From NCBI GenBank assembly GCA_902574205.1, contig CACGMS010000012.1:1-36954 (forward strand): a DNA stretch of 36,954 bases. The letters are read 5' to 3'. Made by a program: the position numbers and the translations under genes. Of this stretch, positions 8,732-27,701 are shown one piece after another (position 1 is the stretch's first letter; every line of letters starts with the position of its first letter). Below the pieces are notes generated by a model that worked only from the letters and a program-made list of their open reading frames with translations, searched no databases and was not told where the DNA came from. Source of the stretch: an uncultured Candidatus Hydrogenedens sp. (GTDB lineage: Bacteria; Myxococcota; UBA4151).

Positions 8732-9546
8732 GTGGTCCTCGCTGATTCTTGGCGCAGTCTGATGGGAATCATGACTAAGGTCATGCTCGCCCAGACCGCT
8801 AGGCTAAAGTAGAGTGATTGCCAGACCATGGGGTAACGCCAGTCGCTCCAGGCGCCGGTAATGATCATGTTTTGGATGTCTCGAAACCCCTCACTTAGAG
8901 TCAGGTAGGTTGCACCGGCTTGTTCTTTAGCCTGCCAGAGTCGGTAGTAGTTGGGCACATCGATCAGCGTCATAAAGAGCAGATAAGCGATGCATCCTAA
9001 CACTCCATAGCGAATCCATCGCTGAAGCAGAGCTGTGCCTTCGTTGCGGCAAAGCCACAGTCCGAATCCGAACAGCAGGGCGCTTAGGGTCCATAAGCTC
9101 TCTTCCACTGTTTGACCGAGGTAATTGGTGGTGAGCACACCATACCAGGCACAGCATTGGGCGAGTGTGATCAGCGGAAGAATGGGTAGAGCACACCGTT
9201 TGAGTGCAGCTCGATCAGTGGTTTGGGCGAGATGTACCAAGAGGACGACCCATTGAGCGACAAAGGCGAGTTCAGCGATGGTGGCGATCGTTCGACCAAC
9301 CAAGACCGTGGATATCCATGAATCAAACATGGCAAAGCGGGCGACGTCACTGCGCAAAACAAAGCAGCGGGAGGCGCAGCCTAGAGTATAGGTAGCACAG
9401 AGCATTAACTGTAGTTGTTCTAGGCGGCTGGGTGCTTGTCGATTGACCCAGCGATAAAGGCCGATCAATAATCCAATGTTTAGAGCACCAAGAACGCACA
9501 TGGCGATCCACCAGTTGTAGACTGCAGGTGCAAAGTTGGTAGCCAG
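8728..9546 (-). CDS. 7-TM integral membrane protein, probable CTG start
   Basis: A polytopic membrane protein with about seven predicted helices, for example WISTVLVGRTIATIAELAFV, SALLFGFGLWLC and YGVLGCIAYLLFMTLIDV. No family is recognised. The ORF track starts at the ATG at 9501, which cuts into the first helix. Fifteen in-frame codons upstream encode ATNFAPAVYNWWIA and complete that helix. No ATG, GTG or TTG is present in the extension before an in-frame TAA, but a CTG at 9546 has AGGAG exactly seven bases upstream (an ATT at 9549 is also possible). I therefore place the start at CTG, giving 272 residues. This is inference. The ATG at 9501 has only a weak GGTGG site. Confidence 0.7.
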   Translation of the reverse strand: MATNFAPAVYNWWIAMCVLGALNIGLLIGLYRWVNRQAPSRLEQLQLMLCATYTLGCASRCFVLRSDVARFAMFDSWISTVLVGRTIATIAELAFVAQWVVLLVHLAQTTDRAALKRCALPILPLITLAQCCAWYGVLTTNYLGQTVEESLWTLSALLFGFGLWLCRNEGTALLQRWIRYGVLGCIAYLLFMTLIDVPNYYRLWQAKEQAGATYLTLSEGFRDIQNMIITGAWSDWRYPMVWQSLYFSLAVWASMTLVMIPIRLRQESARTT

Positions 9547-9595
9547 AATCGATCTCCTGCCTCTTTATGCAGACCCTTGGCTGGCATGTCTTGCA

Positions 9596-9619
9596 TTATC
9601 GATAAGACTCGACGAGTCT
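9596..9619. promoter_or_regulatory. paired palindromes in the divergent promoter region
   Basis: TTATCGATAA (9596-9605) is a perfect 10-base palindrome. It runs directly into AGACTCGACGAGTCT (9605-9619), a perfect 7-base inverted repeat around a single central base. They lie between the divergent membrane-protein gene and the giant lipoprotein gene, about 30 bases before the GTG start of the latter. This is where an operator controlling one or both genes would be expected. No known regulator site is recognised. Confidence 0.4.
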
Positions 9620-9649
9620 ACTCAGCGAAACAGAGAGAAAGAGTTGTTC

Positions 9650-12600
9650 GTGCGTTTTCTTTTCGGCGGTGTTCTCTTCATGGGTTTAGTTTTCGGCTGT
9701 AATGGCGCTGGGAACTTACCCGAGTTACCGGTGCCGAGTTCTGCTGATTTGGTACCAGATCGGTTGCAGATTAGGGTCTCAGACCCGGACTTATTGTTTG
9801 ATGAAGCTTGGCAAGTACCCAACCAAACGCAGTGGGTTGAGCTTGAGGTTTTGGTTTGGGGTTCATCGAGTGAGCAAGCTCAAACTGAACTTGCCGGTGA
9901 GACCGTAAACTTTACCTTCGCAAACGCCCGCGAGGCGAACACTCGAGCATTGGGTTTAGACCAAGGGAGTTCGTGTATTACCGATGAGCTTGGACGGTGC
10001 CGCTTGGCTGTGCGTTTGGGTACAGAACCGGGTGACTGGGTGATTCGAGCCACGGCTTTACGTAACCCTGAAGCCTTTGCTGATCAGCATCTTGTGGTGG
10101 GTCTGGGCGATCGCCGTCGCGTGATCATTGAGGCGCCGGGACTGCCTGCTCGGAACTGGAATGGAACGTTGCCCGATCCTTGGGTGCGCGACGAGTTAAT
10201 TTTAGCCCAAAGTCAGTCCGAGGGCGGTGCCTTTGTGATTACGGTTTTCGATCAATACGATAACCCGGTGCCAAATAGTCGAATCATCCTGTCCGTACAG
10301 AGTTTAGCAGTATCCTCTCGTGCGGAAAGTGACGCCGGAACCGTTAGGGATGCAACTGCTGGGGTGTCCGATGCCGCACAGGTAACTACTGATGCCTTAG
10401 AACGACGACCTGATGCGCTGGCTAACGATTCGGGCTCGCTGGATGATGCGGGGTTTAGCGATACTGGCGTTGTCGATGGGGCGGGTAGTTCAAATCCCTT
10501 GGGTTGCTCCCTTGCTGCGTGTTTAGGTGCCGACGCTGTTGAGCGAGTCGAGGGTATAACCGACGAGGAGGGGCGCTTTGTGACCCAGTTGGTTCCGGGC
10601 GCTTCATCGGGGCGATTTACTCTGGCCGTTGGTATCGAAGAAATCGGTGAGGACCCCTATGTTTTCCCGGAGGTGGTTCTGAGTGGGAAAACCTATCAGC
10701 GATTAGCCACACAGATTATTTTTGATGGTCAAGCGGTCTGCTTTCCTGCCGATACGGTGCGCGGCGCTCAGGTTCGCTTGGTCGATGCAACAGGCGCAGG
10801 TGTCGCTAATGCGTCGTTACAAATAATTGCCGAAGGTTTGTTTGGCGCAAGCGCACCGTCAACCGATCGTGACGGTTTTTCGCAGATTACGGCGCGCTGT
10901 CCATCGCAGCCGCCTGGCGTCAACGAGGTTTTGTTGTTGCGCGCAATCGATGTTGATCAACCTCAAATTCAAATCGATATCCCTGTTGCCTTTGAAACCG
11001 CTGCCCCCGACCAACTCGACTATGTACCCATACGCTTTGATTCCAATTCGATCATTGCAGGCAGTGTCTCACGGTTGAGGTTTCGAGTCACCGACCGCAA
11101 TGGCTTTCCGGTGCCTGAGGCGAGTGTGACCGCTCAGCCACTCAGTGAAGCAGACCTTGGGCGACTCACCTTTCAAAGGGGTGAAGATTTTATCTCGACC
11201 CAAACTCTTCAAACTAACGCCTCAGGAGAGGTGATCTTTGAAGTGCGTCCCATCGGTGCGCGAACGCAGCCTGAATACCCGCTGCAATTAAAGGTTTTTG
11301 CGGCTCTTGACCCCATTGTGCGCACGCTCGTCCCAATTCATGTGCTTGGCGGTACACCGCAACGGGTTCGAGTGGTGCGTGGGCAGAATATGCAATTGTT
11401 GACCGGTCAAGGCGGCGCTACGGTCACGGTGCGCGTCGATGACGGGCAGGACAACCCGATTTCAAATGTACTGATCAGTGTCGGGGAAACAGCCGATTTA
11501 CTGATGGCTCCAATGACCGGTCGAACCGATCAGTTCGGTGAATTTGATATCGGAATTTTGAGCGTCTTAGGACTTGATGATGAGCGCACGATTCGTGTGC
11601 CTATTCAGGCGAGCTGGCAAGACAGTGAAGGTGTTCCTTGGACCCAATCCACTGAACTGGTCGCAGGTATTGGTATTGGCGATGGTCGAAGGATTTTGCT
11701 GAGTCAGGGTGGTCAAGCGCTTGCACTCTGCGCAGGTGATCCGTGTCTGCATCTCGATGCAGGCGCACTGCTGGTTGACCCTGTTCAACTGCAAGTGGTC
11801 AACGCCAATGGCGGCGCTTTGCGCAACCGATCCATTGAGATCAATTTGATCGATGATCAACCGCAAGGCTGTGGCAGCAGGCCGAATCAAGGTGAGAACT
11901 TGGGAACGACCGGTGAGTCAGCGGCTTTGTTTTTAGGCGGTGATGTCGGTGCGCAGTGGCGTGCTGGAGATCAAGCTCGCACCTGTCTTTGGGAGGTTCG
12001 AAGCGGCGCCGTGAGCCAACGCCTGCGTTTGGTACAAGGATCCGCTTTACCGAGTCTTGGGACCTTTCAGTTAATCGATGCTGAAGGGCAGTTGACCGGT
12101 GCGGCGAGTGCGCAGTTAGCGCTGGCTTCACGTCCTTTGCATTACGTTCACCCCCAAGTGTTTGATGCGAGTAATTCACACCATGTTGAGTTGCGGGTTC
12201 GTGATCGATTTGGCAACCCGGCGGGGCTTGAGTTGCTCGGAGCTAATCCCGACAATTGCATCGCCGATCGCAATCAGTTTGTTCTCGATGCACAAGGGGT
12301 GACTCGGCTTCGAATAGCCGGCGGCGCTGATCCCCGTATTCCTTGTCGAATGTCCGTATTTTCACCGCGCAGTTGGCAAGGTGATCCCCCCTTAGCCACG
12401 TTTGATGTGGGCGGTGGTGTCATCGATGTCCGTGATTTTGTGTTTGAGCCCGTTGGCCTACAAAGCCGAGTGGTGCGCTTTCCGACCGTTGGTGATTGGA
12501 CCGGAGTGGAAGTGGGGCATTTACGCGGGGGGTTAGCACAAGGCGTAGTTTTACCTCTTGAGGCGAGCGATGAAGAGGGATTCTGCGCCGAGCGGGATCG

Positions 12601-15049
12601 CTGTACGGTTGTTGAACTGCTGTATTTAGGGACCTATGAATCGCTTTTACCGAGTCCGCGCGTCCTGTGCGGCGAAGAGGCACAGTGTCCAAGCCTTTTG
12701 ATCAAGCGCACACGAGCCAGTTATATCGTTGAGCTTCCGCGTGAGCATTTGCGCACGCCCGGTCGCTTTGGTTTAAGGTTGTTCACGCCTGGTCAACCAG
12801 CGATTACCAGCGCTATTTTACCGATTTGGGCGCGGCCTATTCCGCGAGGAATCGAGCGGCGCGTAGCGATCAATGCACCGCAAAACCATCAGGATCCGAT
12901 GGCGGTTGACGTGCTCACACAGCGCTTTGACGATGACCGGGTACGCACCGATGCCTGTGGTTATAGTTTTTATAATGATCCCAACGACCCGGAGCGGCAT
13001 CTGCATCAATATCGAGCGTGGGTGGCGAGTTGGACAACAGGAGCGCCTCAAACGAGTCGTCGAACCGTTTTTCCGCAAAGCATCGATGCGCTAACGATTG
13101 GAATTAAGGGTTATACCAGCCGGGTTTGGCATTGGGAAACGTCGTTATGCCATGCTGACGATCTCAACGGCGATGGGGTTCAGGATTTGATGCTGCTTGG
13201 ATCGCCACGCGGCGATCAGCACGGGCAAAATTGCCTTCATGCCGTCTTTGGTGACGCAAACGGCGGGTTCATCTCGAATACCCAAGAGATTAACAGGTAT
13301 TGCGGGACCATGCCGGGGTGCCGCTTGCGGCAAATAGGCGAGGGTCAAACCGCGTTAGCCGTGCTTGATTTTTGTGATCCAAACCTGCCGCGCTCAAGGC
13401 GAGCCTACAGCGTGGATATGGATGGAGACCCACTCGACAACAGCCGTTATATGGAAGTCAGTTACAGTGCGACGCCAGAACCGCAATATTACGGTTACCG
13501 ACCTTCGGGTTCAACCTGGTCGCTCCGCCGGTTTGGTAATTTGAGCCAAGGCGGTCGGTTGGTGGTTTTAGGTAACCGAGGTCGCGCCGGACTCATGCAC
13601 GCCTACCCGGATTGGCAGCGGCATAATCTCGATGGTTTAGCCTGGGATGAGGTGGTTGAGTTCAGGCTCGGCAATTGCGGAGATGATATTGCACAGACTC
13701 AATGCAGCTCGATTGTTCGAGGTGGCGCTGAACTGTATTCAGCGAACGGCTACAGCGGTGTGATTCGATTGCTCGCCAACAATCGGTATACGCAGCGGAC
13801 ATCGCAAGGTGGGATGAGTTTACATGATACCGCTACGGGTCAGCCTTTCGGTGCTTTACATGGATTTGAAGCTCGAGGTACAAGTTTGAGTCCATCGGTT
13901 GATTGGTGGTTGGAACCGCTCGGTTACAGGGGTATTTATCGCCGTCTTATGCGCTGGAGGGGGCCAGTTCAGGAGTATCCGTGGGCCGATTGCAATGCAC
14001 AAGAGACAGACGGTTGTCAGGAGGTGGGGTTGCTGTTTTCAACGCATTGGATCACGGATGAGGTGTATCTCACGCATGTAGACGACAGAGGCGATTACGT
14101 TGTTTTGCGGCATATTGATCAACCCACTCAAGCCTATTCCAACCGAGTCTATGCCGGTGCTGTCCATGGCTACGATATTCTGCAAAGCGCCGATCGATCG
14201 AAATTTCTCGTCAACACGCGCTCAGGGCTTGGGGTGGTTACTGTTCGTCTCGACGCGCCGCTTGAGCAGCGTCTTCAGTTCAACTTGCTACCGGAGCCGG
14301 CTCGCAACTGGCGGCAAGGAGGCCACTGCTCGTATAGCCAGGATGGTGCCCATTTAGCTTGCCGGCGCGCACAACCACCAGCTGTTCGAATATACACCTT
14401 TGGCGACCAAAGTCACCGCACAGTCGACGTGCCAGGACAGAGCCTAGGTGCAGACCGAAGTCTCACGTCCCTCGGTTTTTTGAATAACGGCATGTTGCTT
14501 GGAAACCTCGACGACACCGCATCTTTGCTTATTGACCCTGCTGATGGCTCCGTTCTTCGTCGATGGTTTAGCTCAACAAACGAGCGTTATCCGCTTCGAG
14601 AAGCTTGGGGTATACATGGCGGTGTACATCGGATGAGCCCGGTGACACGGGGTAGCCTTCCAGGCGGAGGGGTTTTGGTGAGCGGCAGGAGCAACCGCGT
14701 GATGCGTTTAGATTTGAGTGGACGTCAAGCTGACGAGTTGACGCGCACGACACTGCCTGGTGTCCACACGACCAGCGACGTCTTTGATGGCGGCGACCAT
14801 GAATCCATAGTGCTCAAGCAAGTCGATGAGATTATCGTTTGGACGCCACAGCGTGCGGTTCCACTGTGCGGTAATGGAATTCTTGATGACGGTGAGCGCT
14901 GCGATGACGGCAACCTGCGCCATGATGATGACTGCCCTATGGATTGTCGAAGTGTCTGCGGCGATGGGGTGCGCAGCGAGCTTGAAGCCTGCGATGACGG
15001 CAATCAAGTCGACGGTGACGGATGCAGTGCTCAGTGCGAGATGCCCTAG
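9650..15049 (+). CDS. giant Ig-like/FG-GAP/DUF4215 surface lipoprotein
   Basis: About 1799 residues from the GTG at 9650, chosen because it begins a clean lipoprotein signal (VRFLFGGVLFMGLVFGC); the ORF track adds 38 unrelated residues. The N-terminal two thirds contain at least six Big_1/invasin-like beta-sandwich modules recognisable by their repeated beginnings (ITVFDQYDNPVPNSR, FRVTDRNGFPVPEAS, VRVDDGQDNPISN, LRVRDRFGNPAG). An Asp/Ala-rich insertion interrupts the second. An FG-GAP motif (DDLNGDGVQDLMLLG) near residue 1170 opens a propeller-like region. The last 60 residues are two DUF4215 Cys-rich repeats (CGNGILDDGERCDDGN and CGDGVRSELEACDDGN). It is presumably a long rod-like surface adhesin or scaffold. 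It ends on the TAG shared with the convergent gene. Confidence 0.85.
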   Translation: MRFLFGGVLFMGLVFGCNGAGNLPELPVPSSADLVPDRLQIRVSDPDLLFDEAWQVPNQTQWVELEVLVWGSSSEQAQTELAGETVNFTFANAREANTRALGLDQGSSCITDELGRCRLAVRLGTEPGDWVIRATALRNPEAFADQHLVVGLGDRRRVIIEAPGLPARNWNGTLPDPWVRDELILAQSQSEGGAFVITVFDQYDNPVPNSRIILSVQSLAVSSRAESDAGTVRDATAGVSDAAQVTTDALERRPDALANDSGSLDDAGFSDTGVVDGAGSSNPLGCSLAACLGADAVERVEGITDEEGRFVTQLVPGASSGRFTLAVGIEEIGEDPYVFPEVVLSGKTYQRLATQIIFDGQAVCFPADTVRGAQVRLVDATGAGVANASLQIIAEGLFGASAPSTDRDGFSQITARCPSQPPGVNEVLLLRAIDVDQPQIQIDIPVAFETAAPDQLDYVPIRFDSNSIIAGSVSRLRFRVTDRNGFPVPEASVTAQPLSEADLGRLTFQRGEDFISTQTLQTNASGEVIFEVRPIGARTQPEYPLQLKVFAALDPIVRTLVPIHVLGGTPQRVRVVRGQNMQLLTGQGGATVTVRVDDGQDNPISNVLISVGETADLLMAPMTGRTDQFGEFDIGILSVLGLDDERTIRVPIQASWQDSEGVPWTQSTELVAGIGIGDGRRILLSQGGQALALCAGDPCLHLDAGALLVDPVQLQVVNANGGALRNRSIEINLIDDQPQGCGSRPNQGENLGTTGESAALFLGGDVGAQWRAGDQARTCLWEVRSGAVSQRLRLVQGSALPSLGTFQLIDAEGQLTGAASAQLALASRPLHYVHPQVFDASNSHHVELRVRDRFGNPAGLELLGANPDNCIADRNQFVLDAQGVTRLRIAGGADPRIPCRMSVFSPRSWQGDPPLATFDVGGGVIDVRDFVFEPVGLQSRVVRFPTVGDWTGVEVGHLRGGLAQGVVLPLEASDEEGFCAERDRCTVVELLYLGTYESLLPSPRVLCGEEAQCPSLLIKRTRASYIVELPREHLRTPGRFGLRLFTPGQPAITSAILPIWARPIPRGIERRVAINAPQNHQDPMAVDVLTQRFDDDRVRTDACGYSFYNDPNDPERHLHQYRAWVASWTTGAPQTSRRTVFPQSIDALTIGIKGYTSRVWHWETSLCHADDLNGDGVQDLMLLGSPRGDQHGQNCLHAVFGDANGGFISNTQEINRYCGTMPGCRLRQIGEGQTALAVLDFCDPNLPRSRRAYSVDMDGDPLDNSRYMEVSYSATPEPQYYGYRPSGSTWSLRRFGNLSQGGRLVVLGNRGRAGLMHAYPDWQRHNLDGLAWDEVVEFRLGNCGDDIAQTQCSSIVRGGAELYSANGYSGVIRLLANNRYTQRTSQGGMSLHDTATGQPFGALHGFEARGTSLSPSVDWWLEPLGYRGIYRRLMRWRGPVQEYPWADCNAQETDGCQEVGLLFSTHWITDEVYLTHVDDRGDYVVLRHIDQPTQAYSNRVYAGAVHGYDILQSADRSKFLVNTRSGLGVVTVRLDAPLEQRLQFNLLPEPARNWRQGGHCSYSQDGAHLACRRAQPPAVRIYTFGDQSHRTVDVPGQSLGADRSLTSLGFLNNGMLLGNLDDTASLLIDPADGSVLRRWFSSTNERYPLREAWGIHGGVHRMSPVTRGSLPGGGVLVSGRSNRVMRLDLSGRQADELTRTTLPGVHTTSDVFDGGDHESIVLKQVDEIIVWTPQRAVPLCGNGILDDGERCDDGNLRHDDDCPMDCRSVCGDGVRSELEACDDGNQVDGDGCSAQCEMP

Positions 15050-16271: not shown

Positions 16272-17189
16272 ATGCGAGTGGTCTTTGTGTTGGTGCTGCT
16301 CGCAACCAGTAGTTGCTCGGGGCGCTTGGAAGCTGGCGAACAAAGTCGCGAGGGTTGGAACAAACTCTCAAGCGAAGCGCAACGAGTCGTTGAACACGGC
16401 GGAACCGAGCGTGCTTTTACGGGCAAGTTTTTGAACCATAAAGAACAGGGGACCTACACGTGTGCTCGTTGCAGCGCGCCGCTTTTTCCATCGGGTGCGA
16501 AGTTTAAATCAGGAACGGGTTGGCCGAGTTTTGATCAGGCTTTAACTGGCGCAATCAAAGAAGTGCCGGATGGGATGCGGGTCGAGATTCGCTGCGCTCG
16601 CTGTGACGGTCATTTGGGTCACGTCTTTCGCGGCGAAGGGATGACGACAAAGAATACCAGGCACTGTGTCAATTCAGTGGCGTTGGGCTTTAGTGAGACA
16701 CCGACTCAAGAAGCCTTTTTTGCGGGTGGATGCTTTTGGGGCGTTGAGCATTTGCTCGAGTCGATGCCCGGTGTGCTTAGTGTTCAATCGGGTTACATGG
16801 GCGGTAAGGTTGATAAACCTACCTACAAGCAGGTCATACGGGGAACGACCGGTCATGCAGAGACGGTGAAGGTGGTCTTTGATCCCACGAAAACAAACTA
16901 CGAAATTTTAGCACGTCAGTTCTTTGAGATTCATGATCCAACGCAGGTGAATCGCCAGGGTCCAGACATTGGCCCGCAGTACCGATCAGCCATTTTTGTG
17001 ACCGATTCGCAGCAGGAGCAAACCGTCCTTCAACTGATGAGCGAACTCAGAGGTCTTGGATACAAAGTCGCTACCCAAGTGGAGCCTGCCGAAGTGTTTT
17101 GGCCGGCTGAAAATTATCATCAGGATTATTACAAGCGAACAGGCAAAGCGCCCTACTGTCATAGCTACACAAAGCGCTTTAAAAAGTGA
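16272..17189 (+). CDS. msrAB: lipoprotein MsrB-MsrA fusion, methionine sulfoxide reductase
   Basis: A 305-residue bifunctional enzyme that repairs both stereoisomers of methionine sulfoxide. The signal MRVVFVLVLLATSSC (Cys15) predicts a lipid-anchored envelope form. MsrB comes first: zinc CxxC pairs CARC and CARC(DGHLGHVF), and the catalytic Cys in RHCVNSVALGF near residue 132. MsrA follows directly with GGCFWGVE (catalytic Cys near 153) and a C-terminal Cys in APYCHSYTKRF as a likely resolving residue. The B-then-A order is the reverse of the A-then-B arrangement in PilB. There is no thioredoxin domain, so an external electron donor is needed. GGAGG nine bases upstream fixes the start. The next gene is 51 bases downstream on the same strand. 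Confidence 0.93.
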   Translation: MRVVFVLVLLATSSCSGRLEAGEQSREGWNKLSSEAQRVVEHGGTERAFTGKFLNHKEQGTYTCARCSAPLFPSGAKFKSGTGWPSFDQALTGAIKEVPDGMRVEIRCARCDGHLGHVFRGEGMTTKNTRHCVNSVALGFSETPTQEAFFAGGCFWGVEHLLESMPGVLSVQSGYMGGKVDKPTYKQVIRGTTGHAETVKVVFDPTKTNYEILARQFFEIHDPTQVNRQGPDIGPQYRSAIFVTDSQQEQTVLQLMSELRGLGYKVATQVEPAEVFWPAENYHQDYYKRTGKAPYCHSYTKRFKK

Positions 17190-17240: not shown

Positions 17241-19172
17241 ATGCGCTTTCTTATTTTATCCGTTGTGATGTGTTCAGCGTGCAGCGCAACGCCGCCGGAG
17301 CCGCTGTGCGGTAACGGTACCGTTGAAGCCGGTGAAGCTTGTGATGATGGCAACTTAGTCGATACCGATTCATGTACTTCCTTATGCGTGGCTGCTCGTT
17401 GCGGTGATGGTATCGTTCAAGATGGCGAGTTGTGTGAAGGTTCTGAAGAGGAGGGGTGTTACAATTGTCAGCCACGCTGCGGTGATGGAATTGTTGCCGG
17501 TGATGAGGCGTGCGATGATGGGAATTACGAACCTCGAGATGCCTGCGATGATTGCGACCCCGTGCGCTGCGGTGAGGTGTATTTTGACTCCGCAGCGGGT
17601 TCTCCGTCGTTAGTGACTGATCAGGTTGGGGACTTTTCCTTACCGCTTAATGGCGGTCGTACTTGGCATTTTAGCCAAGCCTTTAATGGTTGTGATAGCT
17701 ACCATTTTATCCTTCGAGACGGAGCGGTACAGTACACAACAAGCCTGATCAACAGCGACATGCGTGGATTTTTAGCTGAGCTTCCCAGCAACAGTCACGT
17801 CTTCTTTGGTAGCTTTGCCGGCGGGTCACAGCAGGCTCTGGATTCGATCCGCAACACGCAAGGTGTTGTCGAGGCTGCTCTTGGTCGGTTGAGTCCCGCT
17901 CAACGGAGCGAGTGGGAGGGGCGAATCCATTACATTATGGAGCCGGTTCAATTCTTGAGCGGGCCGATTGGGGATGTGGCTCGTCGTGAGCCACGGTCCT
18001 TTCTCAATTTTACCTTTTCCATCGATCGAGCGCAGCGTTTGCGCGAGCATGGTTTACTGCGTGACCCGACCATGCAGGATTCAAACGTCGATATCCGCTG
18101 GATCGCTGAAGAAGCCAAAGGGTATAATTTTGAATTTGATCGCCAGCAACGCTTGAGTGCCGAAGAGGGCATCACCGAGGTTGTACTCACGGAAGGGCTT
18201 GTGCATGGGGGCGGTGGCACGACCTTTGAGGTCGAGTTGCCGAGCACCGAGGCGCTCGACGCGTTTGATACCATGGCGATCGATATGCTCATGGATTGCC
18301 CGGATCACACTCATGAAAACTGCAACCCTTGGGATTATTCTGCGCCCTTGTTTTTATGCGGAACGACGCCTCGAGAGGGCTGCGGTGATGGGGTGCTTGA
18401 TGAGGAAGCAGGAGAGGCTTGTGATGATGGCAACACGATCGCTGGTGACGGGTGCACGGAGTATTGCGAACTCGAAGAGTCTGGTCGGATCGGTTATTGT
18501 CCAGATAAGGTCGAGTTTGCCTATTGGATCACGACCTATAAACGGCCCGGTCAATGGGTCCATGACATTACCCCGATGCTCGCTCACTTCAAGCAAGGCG
18601 GTAAGCGACGTATGCGCTTCCAGGTGGGTACCAATGGCAAACAGTATCTACTGACGATCAAGCTGCGTTTGAGCGCTACGACACCACAATTTGGAAGACC
18701 TGATGCGGTGGTTCCGATGTGGACGGGTGGGGGCTATGGTGAAGGGTACAACGATGCCCAAGAGCTCAAAGAGGTGACGGTTCCGGCCGATGTAAAACGA
18801 GTCGAGTTTGTTGCGCACATTACCGGACACGGCATGTCAGGTGCTATGAATTGCTCGGAATTTTGTGCGCACAACCATCGCATTCAAGTCGGTCAGGGAC
18901 CGGTTCACGAAAAGGATCATAGCGTCGCCGACGCGCGGCGAGGATGTCAGATGGCGGTCAATGAAGGGGTCGTTCCTAATCAATTTGGTACATGGCCATT
19001 TGGTCGTGCGGGTTGGTGTCCGGGGCAAGAGGTGCGGCCGTGGCGGATCGATCTCACCGATGAATTGATACCGGGAAGTACACAAACCTTACGCTATTGG
19101 TCCGATGTGCGCGGGCAGCCTGGGACAGGTGGTCGTATTCGTATGGTCAGCTGGTTGGTATACTGGCGATAG
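17241..19172 (+). CDS. DUF4215 and PNGase F-like lipoprotein
   Basis: 643 residues from the ATG at 17241, chosen because it gives a lipoprotein signal (MRFLILSVVMCSAC). Residues about 22-110 carry three DUF4215 Cys-rich repeats. Residues about 115-290 look redoxin-like (GDFSLPLNGGRTWHFSQAF and FSIDRAQRLREHGLL), a tentative call. The rest matches the two jelly-roll halves of peptide-N-glycosidase F: NPWDYSAPLFLC near 363, HITGHGMSG, NCSEFCAHNHRI near 537 and FGRAGWCPGQEV near 588. A fourth DUF4215 repeat (CGDGVLDEEAGEACDDGN, about 380-412) is inserted within the first half. From memory of Flavobacterium PNGase F, Asp60 and Glu206 have counterparts, while Arg61 is Tyr and Glu118 is not evident, so glycosidase activity is uncertain. 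Confidence 0.8.
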   Translation: MRFLILSVVMCSACSATPPEPLCGNGTVEAGEACDDGNLVDTDSCTSLCVAARCGDGIVQDGELCEGSEEEGCYNCQPRCGDGIVAGDEACDDGNYEPRDACDDCDPVRCGEVYFDSAAGSPSLVTDQVGDFSLPLNGGRTWHFSQAFNGCDSYHFILRDGAVQYTTSLINSDMRGFLAELPSNSHVFFGSFAGGSQQALDSIRNTQGVVEAALGRLSPAQRSEWEGRIHYIMEPVQFLSGPIGDVARREPRSFLNFTFSIDRAQRLREHGLLRDPTMQDSNVDIRWIAEEAKGYNFEFDRQQRLSAEEGITEVVLTEGLVHGGGGTTFEVELPSTEALDAFDTMAIDMLMDCPDHTHENCNPWDYSAPLFLCGTTPREGCGDGVLDEEAGEACDDGNTIAGDGCTEYCELEESGRIGYCPDKVEFAYWITTYKRPGQWVHDITPMLAHFKQGGKRRMRFQVGTNGKQYLLTIKLRLSATTPQFGRPDAVVPMWTGGGYGEGYNDAQELKEVTVPADVKRVEFVAHITGHGMSGAMNCSEFCAHNHRIQVGQGPVHEKDHSVADARRGCQMAVNEGVVPNQFGTWPFGRAGWCPGQEVRPWRIDLTDELIPGSTQTLRYWSDVRGQPGTGGRIRMVSWLVYWR

Positions 19173-19234: not shown

Positions 19235-21358
19235 ATGAGCTTTCTCGATGGCCTCAACGACGAACAGCGATTAGCCGCCGAGCACCGAGACGGTCATCTT
19301 TTGATCCTTGCTGGTGCAGGTACGGGTAAAACTCGAACGTTGGTGCATCGCCTTGGCAGTCTCTTGGAGCAAGGACAGCCTGCCCATCGGCTCATGGCAA
19401 TTACTTTTACCAACAAAGCGGCTGCCGAGCTCAAAGAGCGTCTCAAAGATTTGGTGGGCAGCAAAGCGGATCGGGTCGTATGCGGTACATTTCATGGCGT
19501 CGCGGCGCGTTACTTGCGGCAGTTGAGTTCACGAATAGGTTGGCCCGCAGACTTCTTAATCTATGATGACGCCGATCAGCGCAGCCTGGTTTCGGGGTTG
19601 TTGTCGAGCGCTGACCAAGTCACACCTGGTGCGTTGATCAAAGCGATGGAGCGATTGCGCCTCAATCCGCAGGTTGCGATCCCCACATGGGATCGCGCAG
19701 GTCAGCTCGCCAAAGCGCGTTTGACCGAGTACCGCGCGGCGTTAGCTAAAGCGGGTGCAGTCGACTTCCAAGGCTTGGTTGAGGGGTTTGTCGCGCTCGT
19801 TGAAGCCGGTCACCTCCCTCCTTTTGATGAGGTGATGGTCGATGAGTTTCAAGATACGGATCGGTTGCAGCATCGGCTCCTTGAGGGGTTTGCTCAACAC
19901 GGTTCACGGGTTGTTGCGGTGGGCGATGATGACCAAAGTATTTACGGCTGGCGCGGAGCGGATGTTAGCGGGATGCTCAGTTTTGAGAAGACTTATCCAG
20001 GTGCAAGCCGAGTCACCCTGGCGCGCAATTACCGATCGGTTCAAACGGTGCTTGATGCGGCCAATCGATTGATTGGAAAGAATCGTGACCGCTTGGGTAA
20101 AGTACTGGTTGGTAATCGCGGTCAAGGCGATGATTTGGAAGTGACTGCTGTTGCCGATGATCGCGCAGAACAACGCCAAGTGGTGCGGCAACTGTCCTCG
20201 TGGATCGATGCCGGTTTACCAGCGAGCGAACTCGCTGTTTTGGCGCGCACGAATGCCCAATTAAGAAGCATTGAAATCGGGTTAGCCGGGGCACGAGTGC
20301 CTTACCGTTTGGTTGGCGGTCGAGCTCTTTTTGAAACCCGAGAAGTACGCGATGTGATGGCCTTTTTGAGGCTTTGGGTTCAGCCTGACTCAGACCTAGA
20401 TTTGCTTCGGATTATCAACCGACCAACGCGTGGGTTGGGTAAAGTGGCCGTGGATAAAATAAAGACATCTGCAGCAGGAAGACCTCTTTTACCCTTTTTA
20501 AGGCAGCATTATGATGAGTTCAGCGCACGCACGCGACGGGGCATCTCGCGTTTGCTTGAAGTGCTTGATCCAGTGCCTTCAAGTGTTCGCGAAGGGCTTG
20601 AGCGGGTGATTTACGATGGCGGCTATTTGGAGTGGGTTTGCCAGCGTGAACCCGAGCGTGCGGATGATCGCGAGGCGAATTTACTGAGTTTGCTTGATAG
20701 CGCTTCAACCCTTGCTGGTCCTGAGGGTGACTTGATTGAATTTTTAGAAGCATGGAGCCTGGCGGGAGGTGCTGACTTAGGTCGAGGTGAGGGCGTGCGT
20801 TTGATGACCATTCATGCGTCGAAAGGACTTGAATTCAGCGCCTTGTGTTTACCGGGTTGGGAGGAAGGTTTGTTTCCCATGCCCGATCCTGAAGGGGGAC
20901 GCTTTGATCAACTCGAAGAGGAACGACGCCTGGCATATGTCGCCCTGACTCGAGCGCGCGACCGAGCCATGATTACTTGGGCGCGCTCCCGTATGCACCA
21001 TGGCCGAACGCTCCCCGGTCGACCCAGTCGGTTTATCACAGACATCGCGGGAGAAGGCGTTCGTGGTTATGCGCACCACCCGCTTGATGGTCGACAGGTT
21101 CAAGCCTTGCCTCAAGCGCAAAGAAAATCGGCTCAGCCGGTTGCTTACGATGAACTCGCTCAGGTTGATTATGGTGACCAAGAAGGTGGCGTATTTGTTC
21201 CAGGCGACCCGGTTGAGCATGAGCGTTTTGGTCGCGGTGTGATTCAGTCGTTGCGTGGCTCGGGGTTGCAGACCAAAGTGGAAGTCCGATTTGCCGATGG
21301 TAGCGTTCGAACGATTATCGCTTCGTTTTTGGTTCCTGCTGATTCCATGGAGTTTTAA
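19235..21358 (+). CDS. UvrD/PcrA-type DNA helicase
   Basis: A 707-residue superfamily 1A 3'-5' helicase. All motifs are present in order: Q-motif region LNDEQRLAAEH, Walker A AGAGTGKT near residue 27, TFTNKAAAELKERL, Walker B VDEFQDTDRLQ, motif III VGDDDQSIYGWRGAD, LARNYRS, RLMTIHASKGLEFSALCLPGWEEGLFP and VALTRARDRAMITWAR. The C terminus (HERFGRGVIQSLRGSGLQTKVEVRFADG) resembles the PcrA/UvrD Tudor-like domain that contacts RNA polymerase. It acts in nucleotide-excision and mismatch repair or transcription-coupled repair. Whether it is the main UvrD of the cell cannot be told from one window. Its stop overlaps the BolA-like gene start as TAATG. Confidence 0.95.
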   Translation: MSFLDGLNDEQRLAAEHRDGHLLILAGAGTGKTRTLVHRLGSLLEQGQPAHRLMAITFTNKAAAELKERLKDLVGSKADRVVCGTFHGVAARYLRQLSSRIGWPADFLIYDDADQRSLVSGLLSSADQVTPGALIKAMERLRLNPQVAIPTWDRAGQLAKARLTEYRAALAKAGAVDFQGLVEGFVALVEAGHLPPFDEVMVDEFQDTDRLQHRLLEGFAQHGSRVVAVGDDDQSIYGWRGADVSGMLSFEKTYPGASRVTLARNYRSVQTVLDAANRLIGKNRDRLGKVLVGNRGQGDDLEVTAVADDRAEQRQVVRQLSSWIDAGLPASELAVLARTNAQLRSIEIGLAGARVPYRLVGGRALFETREVRDVMAFLRLWVQPDSDLDLLRIINRPTRGLGKVAVDKIKTSAAGRPLLPFLRQHYDEFSARTRRGISRLLEVLDPVPSSVREGLERVIYDGGYLEWVCQREPERADDREANLLSLLDSASTLAGPEGDLIEFLEAWSLAGGADLGRGEGVRLMTIHASKGLEFSALCLPGWEEGLFPMPDPEGGRFDQLEEERRLAYVALTRARDRAMITWARSRMHHGRTLPGRPSRFITDIAGEGVRGYAHHPLDGRQVQALPQAQRKSAQPVAYDELAQVDYGDQEGGVFVPGDPVEHERFGRGVIQSLRGSGLQTKVEVRFADGSVRTIIASFLVPADSMEF

Positions 21359-25796: not shown

Positions 25797-27701
25797 ATGA
25801 TGCGTGGGCTTTGGCTTTTGATCTTTGTCGTAGCGGGTTGTGGAAACGATCCGGTTGTTCCTGCTGCCTTTTGTGGAGACGGGACGGTTGATGCCAATGA
25901 AGAGTGCGATGATGGAAATTCCGATCCCACCGATAGCTGTGACAACGCGTGCATCATGCAAGGCTGCGGTAATGGTCGCGTGGACGAAGGCGAAGACTGC
26001 GATGACGGCAATCGATCCAATGATGATGCCTGCACCGCAAATTGTGTGACCGCCCGATGCGGTGATGGTCACCTCCGAGTCGATTTACAAGCGCATCAAA
26101 CGGGTTATGAGGGGTGCGATGACGCCAATAGACAAGTGGGCGATGGCTGCAACGACCAGTGCGGTATTGAAGTCTGCGGTAACGGCGTCGTCGATTTCGG
26201 TGAAGCTTGTGATGACGGCAATACCGTGAGCGAGGACGGGTGTTCTGCGCAATGTGCTCTTGAAGGTTGCGGTAATGGTGAAGTGGACGATGACGAGCAA
26301 TGCGATGATGGAAACGATATAGATACCGATGACTGCACCAACGCATGTACTGTGGCGCGCTGCGGCGATGGGGTCGTTCATGAAGGTCCAGAGCCTTGTG
26401 ACGATGGTAACGATTCAGATTTGGATGCGTGCACATCGGCGTGTGAACTTGCTCGCTGCGGTGACGGTCATGTGCGAATTGATCTTAGTCCCGGTGATGA
26501 CGGTCATGAAGCCTGTGATCCGCCCGGTGATGCGTGCACGAGCGAATGCCAATTGCCGAGCTGCGGCGATGGCGAGGTCAATCGCGGTGAAGAATGCGAT
26601 GACGGCAATTTAGAAACAGGTGATGGCTGTTCACAGTGTCGTGCCGAAATCGTCAAATTGAGTCTTGGGCAAGGGCATAGCTGTGCTCGGAAATTTGATG
26701 GGAGCATCTGGTGTTGGGGGCTAAACAACCAAGGTCAGGTTGGCGGTGACGGTGATGTCGTAGGCCGCCCGCGACAGGTCACAGGTCTTAGCGATGTCCG
26801 GCATCTATCAGCTGGTGCCTTGCACAGTTGTGCGGTGACTGAGCAGGGGCGAGTGTGGTGCTGGGGTGCCAATGATCACGGCCAGCTTGGTGACGGCACG
26901 CGCGAGAACAGTCGCAGTCCACAAAGAGTGCAAAATTTACAAAATGCGGCCTTGGTTGCGGCAGGGTATTGGCATACCTGTGCGCTGCAAGCCGATGGTA
27001 CAGCCCGTTGTTGGGGCGACAATCAATACGGTCAACTGGGCAATGAAAACTTCGATGATCAAATTGCGCCAGGTCCGGTGAATGGCTTGGCTGCCTCGAT
27101 TAATTTGGCACCAGGAGCGCGTCATACGTGCGGTGTAGGCCGTACAAGGCAAGTCGCCTGTTGGGGACAAACGACTGCGGGTCAACTGGGTGACGGCGTT
27201 CCGGGACAAAGTGTGCGGCCATCGGCGGGTCTAGTGGTTGGCTTAACTGGAGTGGCTCAGGCAGCCTCAGGAGAGAGTCACACCTGCGTTGCCAATACCA
27301 ACGGGCAAGTGGCTTGCTGGGGCTATGGTTTCTTTGGTCAACTCGGAAACGGTACCAATCAAGATGCCTCTCGTCCGGTTGCTGTGCCCTCCGCAGGAGA
27401 AGTGACCCACTTGTCTGCTGGGCACCATTTTACAGTGGTCGCAACGACTGACGGTCAGGTGCGTTGCTGGGGTGCCAATGATTCGGGTCAATGCGGACAA
27501 GGTCAAACCAGCCCCAAGATTCTTGCTCCTGTCCCCGTAGGAGGTGTTGAAGATGTCATTGAGGTTGCTGCAGGTTTTGATCATGGATGTGCTCGAACGA
27601 CGTCGGCGCAGCTTTATTGTTGGGGTCGTAACTCGTCGGGTCAGCTTGGATTGGATGATACGACTAATCGTCTGAGCGCAACTTTGGTACAGCGCTTTTA
27701 G
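25797..27701 (+). CDS. DUF4215-RCC1 repeat lipoprotein
   Basis: A 634-residue lipoprotein (MMRGLWLLIFVVAGC, Cys15). Residues about 25-285 are eight tandem DUF4215 Cys-rich repeats, each with a CGNG/CGDG opening, a CDDGN core (CDDAN or CDPPG in divergent copies) and a final Cys. The third and seventh copies carry an insertion (RVDLQAHQTGYEG and RIDLSPGDDGHEA). The remainder is seven RCC1 blades, each with a GxxHxCA...WCWG pattern such as GHSCARKFDGSIWCWG and YWHTCALQADGTARCWG, which is the number needed for one closed seven-bladed propeller. It is probably a surface binding protein. GGGAGG five bases upstream supports the start. The stop abuts the convergent MBL gene with zero spacing. Confidence 0.9.
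   Translation: MMRGLWLLIFVVAGCGNDPVVPAAFCGDGTVDANEECDDGNSDPTDSCDNACIMQGCGNGRVDEGEDCDDGNRSNDDACTANCVTARCGDGHLRVDLQAHQTGYEGCDDANRQVGDGCNDQCGIEVCGNGVVDFGEACDDGNTVSEDGCSAQCALEGCGNGEVDDDEQCDDGNDIDTDDCTNACTVARCGDGVVHEGPEPCDDGNDSDLDACTSACELARCGDGHVRIDLSPGDDGHEACDPPGDACTSECQLPSCGDGEVNRGEECDDGNLETGDGCSQCRAEIVKLSLGQGHSCARKFDGSIWCWGLNNQGQVGGDGDVVGRPRQVTGLSDVRHLSAGALHSCAVTEQGRVWCWGANDHGQLGDGTRENSRSPQRVQNLQNAALVAAGYWHTCALQADGTARCWGDNQYGQLGNENFDDQIAPGPVNGLAASINLAPGARHTCGVGRTRQVACWGQTTAGQLGDGVPGQSVRPSAGLVVGLTGVAQAASGESHTCVANTNGQVACWGYGFFGQLGNGTNQDASRPVAVPSAGEVTHLSAGHHFTVVATTDGQVRCWGANDSGQCGQGQTSPKILAPVPVGGVEDVIEVAAGFDHGCARTTSAQLYCWGRNSSGQLGLDDTTNRLSATLVQRF

Follow-up and report, generated by a model that had tools for sequence, protein, structure and literature searches.

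A DUF4215 Repeat Inside the First Jelly Roll of a Predicted Ngly2-Like PNGase Lipoprotein From Myxococcota

In the stretch of DNA that was analyzed here (36,954 nucleotides, referred to as the window), we found a gene for a predicted lipoprotein in which a DUF4215 unit is located within the first jelly roll of a PNGase F-type domain. The explanation that fits the data best, to which we assign a probability of about 70%, is that the gene encodes an active, cell-anchored Ngly2-like PNGase (peptide:N-glycanase) without a protease-associated (PA) domain, which carries a genus-specific, non-catalytic surface insert.

Gene and Protein Layout

The gene, which combines DUF4215, thioredoxin-like (Tx-like), and PNGase F-type regions, was assigned to positions 17241..19172 on the plus strand by using the ORF list, the start region, and an orthologue from the same genus (L039). 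The ORF comprises 643 amino acids if counted from ATG 17241 and 659 amino acids if counted from the in-frame TTG 17193, whereby TTG 17193 is the less likely start because the signal peptide MRFLILSVVMCSAC begins at ATG 17241. The ORF that starts at ATG 17241 and stops at 19172, as assumed in an earlier, sequence-only reading of the region, is real. All residue numbers used here are counted from TTG 17193. Reading the sequence directly, the signal peptide (17241..17282, plus strand) extends up to the predicted lipid-modified Cys30, and the protein would be a lipoprotein that is lipidated at this residue; the lipobox of L039 (LPAC) is clearer than that of the window protein.

Four DUF4215 stretches were detected with Pfam PF13948 and four cysteine-rich acidic repeats with NCBIfam TIGR02232. 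Three of these units precede the enzyme domain, as had been noticed before, and occupy residues 39–125 (17307..17567, plus strand; PF13948, TIGR02232, and translation). These are unit 1 (17307–17399), unit 2, which is short and degenerate (17400–17477), and unit 3 (17478–17567), all on the plus strand, and together they may form a stalk. They are followed by a Tx-like region that contains neither a CxxC motif nor a PA domain (residues ~131–290; 17583..18062, plus strand), which was located by aligning the family profile to PDB 9lwg, and by a linker that is partly helical by prediction (18063..18182, plus strand; alignment, with the helix in a low-confidence model). The remaining part, residues ~331–659, is a predicted PNGase F-type double jelly roll. 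Jelly roll 1, which is interrupted and has an approximate boundary, covers 18183..18686 (plus strand; profile against PNGase F from residue 25 onwards, and Foldseek matches to 9lwg and PNGase F), and jelly roll 2 covers 18687..19169 (plus strand; Pfam and family profile). The latter includes the Pfam match to PF09113 (N-glycanase_C) at residues 519–656, with an E-value of 1.6e-22 and 80.3 bits at a cut-off of 25. A match to Glyco_hydro_2_N2 (E 0.016) lay under the cut-off and was dismissed as chance.

Relationship to Ngly2 and PNGase F

The closest solved relative by sequence is zebrafish Ngly2 (PDB 9lwg) with an E-value of 2.6e-41, whereas PNGase F yields 1.7e-8; a search with the family profile gave 6.3e-93 for Ngly2 and about 1e-24 for PNGase F. 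The zebrafish enzyme is an active acid PNGase that was identified and solved in 2025, and its Tx-like domain (58–185 and 319–343) is split by a PA domain (186–318) and followed by a linker and the PNGase domain (PMC12753239). The family profile aligns to residues 77–199 of the 9lwg chain and then skips to 349, whereby the chain numbers correspond to the PMC12753239 numbers plus 25, as counted from the conserved Asp and Glu. Taken alone, the Tx-like alignment to Ngly2 is weak (domain i-Evalue 0.004), but it is collinear. In none of the 19 bacterial homologues does the alignment leave space for a PA domain of ~130 residues. The N-terminal model PF09112 did not match the window protein and gave weak matches to 3 of the 19 relatives; with the family profile, jelly roll 1 and PNGase F can be aligned over the full length of the jelly roll. 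Members of the superfamily have two eight-stranded jelly rolls; Foldseek searches with two AlphaFold models of the window protein, both of low confidence (pLDDT 47 and 51), returned 9lwg first and PNGase F next, with TM-scores on the target of at most 0.61. Judged by its sequence, the window protein is a member of the PNGase F superfamily for which fish Ngly2 is the better comparison than the Flavobacterium PNGase F.

With zebrafish Ngly2, the window protein shares the Tx-like domain without CxxC, the linker, the (here predicted) double jelly roll, the catalytic Asp and Glu, the His of the GHG motif, and a Cys-ended loop. It differs from Ngly2 in that the latter has the PA domain inside its Tx-like domain, a His next to the catalytic Asp, Trp480, and only a short loop where the window protein has the DUF4215 unit. 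Furthermore, Ngly2 is lysosomal, whereas the window protein is a predicted bacterial lipoprotein, and formation of a homodimer and activity at acid pH only are features of the Ngly2 type. PNGase F from Flavobacterium (Elizabethkingia; 1pnf, 1pgs, 3pms) has the two jelly rolls predicted for the window protein and likewise Asp60, Glu206, Trp59, and three disulfides, but contains neither a Tx-like domain nor DUF4215, and its residues Arg61, Glu118, and Trp191 correspond to Tyr382, Gly479, and His546 of the window protein.

A further homologue, the peptide-N-glycosidase F-related protein WP_010889584.1 (L053) from Deinococcus radiodurans, is 31% identical to the window protein over the PNGase domain and has the W-D-Y, GHG, and CAEFC motifs, no Glu118, and a short Cys-bracketed loop in common with it. 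In contrast, its N-terminal region is unlike the Tx-like one, and it has no DUF4215 insert. This protein presumably is PNGaseDr of PMC12381499. According to that paper, the N-terminal region of PNGaseDr is predicted to hold modules over the active site, and the D. radiodurans PNGase belongs to six PNGases that were assayed, of which the five other than PNGaseL had a narrower specificity. On its D. radiodurans plasmid, the L053 gene adjoins genes for urea transport and for a type III polyketide synthase.

The Inserted DUF4215 Unit

The fourth DUF4215 unit, CGDGVLDEEAGEACDDGNTIAGDGCTEYCELEES, consists of residues 397–430 (18381..18482, plus strand; TIGR02232) and is missing from 17 aligned Tx-like homologues. 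It constitutes the top-scoring of the four TIGR02232 stretches (residues 395–430), and its four-Cys acidic pattern is complete (Cys397, 410, 421, and 425). The 19-member alignment, together with the match of the family profile to PNGase F and Ngly2, revealed that the insert starts 16 residues past Asp381 and separates two strands of jelly roll 1 that follow each other in the sequence, namely the strand that is initiated by Asp381 and the strand VEFAYWITTY. Both flanking strands continue in all 19 aligned homologues and are also present in the two low-confidence AlphaFold models, which leave the insert itself unstructured (pLDDT 47 and 51). Thus, the proposal from the sequence-only reading that a DUF4215 unit lies within the PNGase F-like jelly roll 1, after the strand with the Asp, is confirmed by the alignment, the profiles, and the modeled strands. 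A location of the repeat outside the jelly roll is excluded by the alignment and by the flanking strands in both models.

The insert is held by a cysteine-bracketed hairpin loop, Cys389–Cys436 (18357..18500, plus strand), as defined by the 19-member alignment; the corresponding loop of Ngly2 is also Cys-ended. Both cysteines are present in 16 of 19 homologues and neither of them in the other 3; because these 3 form one clade, the joint absence counts as one event. A Cys389–Cys436 disulfide likely closes the insert loop. The loop segment amounts to 54–55 residues in the window protein and L039 vs. 10–33 residues in the 17 other Tx-like homologues. The latter, all Myxococcota Tx-like plus PNGase proteins (L009–L018, L020–L022, L024–L026, and L029), have the same architecture and the same active-site residues and no PA domain, but differ from the window protein in the shorter loop, and no DUF4215 was found in them. 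Since Asp381 marks the active-site end of its strand and the tip of the hairpin follows ~eight strand residues on, the insert is expected at the far strand end. It therefore probably extends outward from the strand pair at the end opposite to Asp381, a direction away from the active site that is deduced from strand topology only.

The same four-Cys unit (CGDG..CDDGN..GDGC..C) occurs in pappalysins (8sl1, 7ufg), with an E-value of 1.5e-6 to Pappalysin-2. There, the unit is a module of a metalloprotease chain, whereas in the window protein one unit is located within the enzyme domain. No paper on DUF4215 by name was found in the literature searched.

Distribution, Descent, and Constraint of the Insert

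A search for PF09113 in 195 genomes of the phylum led to matches in 30 of them. The sequence-only reading had suggested looking for the same insertion in homologues, and in a motif scan of the translated PF09113 matches, the window protein and L039 were the only ones with DUF4215-type sequence. Three additional PF09113 matches (L041–L043) were read through, and no DUF4215 was seen. L039 is a same-genus orthologue from the Antarctic Myxococcota MAG ANT-56 and is 73% identical to the window protein over residues 131–659; its contig is the G169:C476 contig, and L040 represents that contig taken from G169. The G169 paralogue L017 has no insert and is placed in a different clade. In a tree calculated without the insert columns, the window protein and L039 join at 100/100 on a long stem. 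No relatives were found in a scan of viral contigs with the family profile, and in the plasmid search the Deinococcus homologue was the sole relative.

Between the window protein and L039, the insert shows 69% identity, with a dN of 0.24, a dS of 1.29, and a dN/dS of ~0.18, and it keeps all four cysteines and the acidic core although synonymous substitutions have almost reached saturation. Purifying selection acts on the insert, and the pattern shows a single gain, on the stem that leads to one genus. An artefact of gene prediction or assembly was discarded as an explanation because the independent same-genus MAG has the insert in register. Taken together, the orthologue, the tree, and the dN/dS value argue that the insert is inherited and constrained and not an assembly error.

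It might be that the insertion into an active enzyme was neutral, i.e., that an abundant repeat landed in a permissive loop and serves no function. This would agree with at least 170 DUF4215 matches in the 2.0-Mb, 60%-complete genome and with the variable loop length among the relatives. However, four cysteines and the acidic core are kept at 69% identity and a dN/dS of ~0.18; folding constraint alone could explain this conservation, and we consider a functionless insert possible, if unlikely. It appears still less probable that the insert lies beside the cleft of an active PNGase and replaces the PA domain in steering the peptide portion of the substrate or keeping it out. The PA domain of Ngly2, which has been proposed to restrict folded substrates (PMC12753239), is indeed missing from the window protein, and the insert is conserved under purifying selection. 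However, the 17 aligned homologues without the insert do not have a PA domain either, so that no replacement is called for, and by topology the insert exits at the far end of the Asp381 strand.

Active-Site Residues

Asp381 in the motif W380-D381-Y382 (18333..18335, plus strand) corresponds to Asp60 of PNGase F and Asp421 of Ngly2, and Glu556 in NCSEFC (18858..18860, plus strand) corresponds to Glu206 of PNGase F and Glu555 of Ngly2. His546 of the GHG motif (18828..18830, plus strand) is equivalent to His546 of Ngly2 and Trp191 of PNGase F. Asp381, Glu556, Trp380 (the Trp59 equivalent), His546, and the six cysteines that form the three disulfides in PNGase F are invariant in the 19 homologues. 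The matches to Asp60 and Glu206, which had been suggested from the sequence, are thus borne out by the profile and the 19-member alignment, and the two deviations from PNGase F that had been pointed out hold as well. The Arg61 position is occupied by Tyr382 in the window protein (Tyr in 15/19 and Arg in 4/19 homologues; His in Ngly2). The Glu118 position corresponds to Gly479 or a neighboring residue, with G, S, A, N, Q, P, or H in the family and Lys in Ngly2; none of the 19 homologues has an acidic residue in this column.

In Ngly2, activity is abolished by the exchanges Asp421Ala or Glu555Ala (PMC12753239). Because Ngly2, which has neither Arg61 nor Glu118, is an active PNGase, the absence of both residues is no evidence of inactivity. 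From ten PNGases, PMC12381499 describes a motif of the type aromatic-D-positive/aromatic, together with an opposite loop that carries a His, except in PNGase F, where it is a Trp; the W-D-Y and His546 of the window protein fit this motif exactly. No Trp of the window protein corresponds to the glycan-stacking Trp480 of Ngly2 (Asn/Gly instead); Tyr485 is located close by. Ngly2 with a mutated Trp480 retains only feeble activity, and Tyr is an accepted alternative in the Trp480 loop of other PNGases, as stated in PMC12381499. Without a Trp at this position, the choice of substrate may differ.

The suggestion of the sequence-only reading that the domain binds glycans without cleaving them or cleaves something else is thus unsupported, and it is improbable that the protein binds glycans or has a structural role and no longer acts as a PNGase, since the unmatched Arg61 and Glu118 and the lack of a Trp at the Trp480 position are outweighed by the invariant Ngly2-essential Asp and Glu, Trp59 equivalent, and GHG His, by Tyr being the family norm at the Arg61 position, and by Ngly2 functioning without Arg61 and Glu118 (PMC12753239).

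Within Myxococcota, a second PF09113 type (L028, L031, L033, L036) was observed, in which C-D-A-F-D-R stands in place of C-x-x-W-D-R, so that Trp59 is replaced by Phe, and which has NWCPG where others have GWCPG. L032 and L034 match PF09113 above the cut-off and keep EEFC and GWCPG, but their W-D motif is entirely gone; they are candidates for PNGase-fold proteins truly without the catalytic Asp. L041 (G187:C91) contains DNAAEFSMRWH, in which the catalytic-type Glu is retained, whereas the CxxxC motif, invariant elsewhere, has lost both of its cysteines.

Genomic Context

The gene is located between an MsrA–MsrB fusion gene (MsrAB, 16272–17189) directly upstream and a gene for a UvrD-type helicase (19235–21358), with FMN oxidoreductase and MTHFR genes as further neighbors. 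It is an orphan because these neighbors are unrelated; the same holds for most of the genes that encode the six tested PNGases, according to PMC12381499. The MsrA–MsrB fusion has a predicted lipoprotein signal and would be an exported methionine sulfoxide repair enzyme. Glycosidases of GH92 and GH20, which would use released glycans, were not found in this 60%-complete genome. Both this result and the unrelated neighbors count against the reading as an active PNGase.

DUF4215 is extremely abundant in the genome. The examples that were read (L044, L046, L049, L051, L052, and window positions 25797–27701) are mostly stalks between the lipobox and varied domains, including RCC1 repeats, a domain that looks formylglycine-generating-enzyme-like, and carboxypeptidase-regulatory-like domains. 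At window positions 9536–15049, a protein of 1837 amino acids with a Big_1 match and a weak FG-GAP match has DUF4215 at its extreme C-terminus, where it is possibly a cap and not a stalk.

Proposed Function

As an Ngly2-like PNGase, the window protein would be exported as a lipoprotein and kept off the membrane by its three N-terminal DUF4215 units. By homology, Asp381 and Glu556, which would sit in the cleft that separates the jelly rolls, would hydrolyze the amide linking Asn to GlcNAc in N-glycoproteins, and the chitobiose core would be bound by Trp380, Tyr382, and His546. The Tx-like domain, which has no redox motif, probably serves in dimerization or scaffolding as in Ngly2. From the pattern among the homologues, the host loop would already have been tolerant of length changes and closed by its Cys pair before the DUF4215 unit entered, and the insert may add a surface contact or a stabilizing appendage outside catalysis. 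More speculatively, the inserted unit could be an adaptor, i.e., a stalk repeat that was recruited into a catalytic domain as a new surface for a partner or substrate and retargets the PNGase of one genus, which we regard as rather improbable.

The analysis ties a large set of so far uncharacterized myxobacterial lipoproteins to the recently solved fish Ngly2. The bacterial forms do not have the PA domain, to which the restriction of Ngly2 to unfolded substrates has been ascribed. They could therefore be used to test that idea, and they are candidate deglycosylation tools. By accepting an entire disulfide module, the insert loop marks a site in the PNGase fold that would furthermore help in the engineering of fusions and in studies on the spread of repeats.
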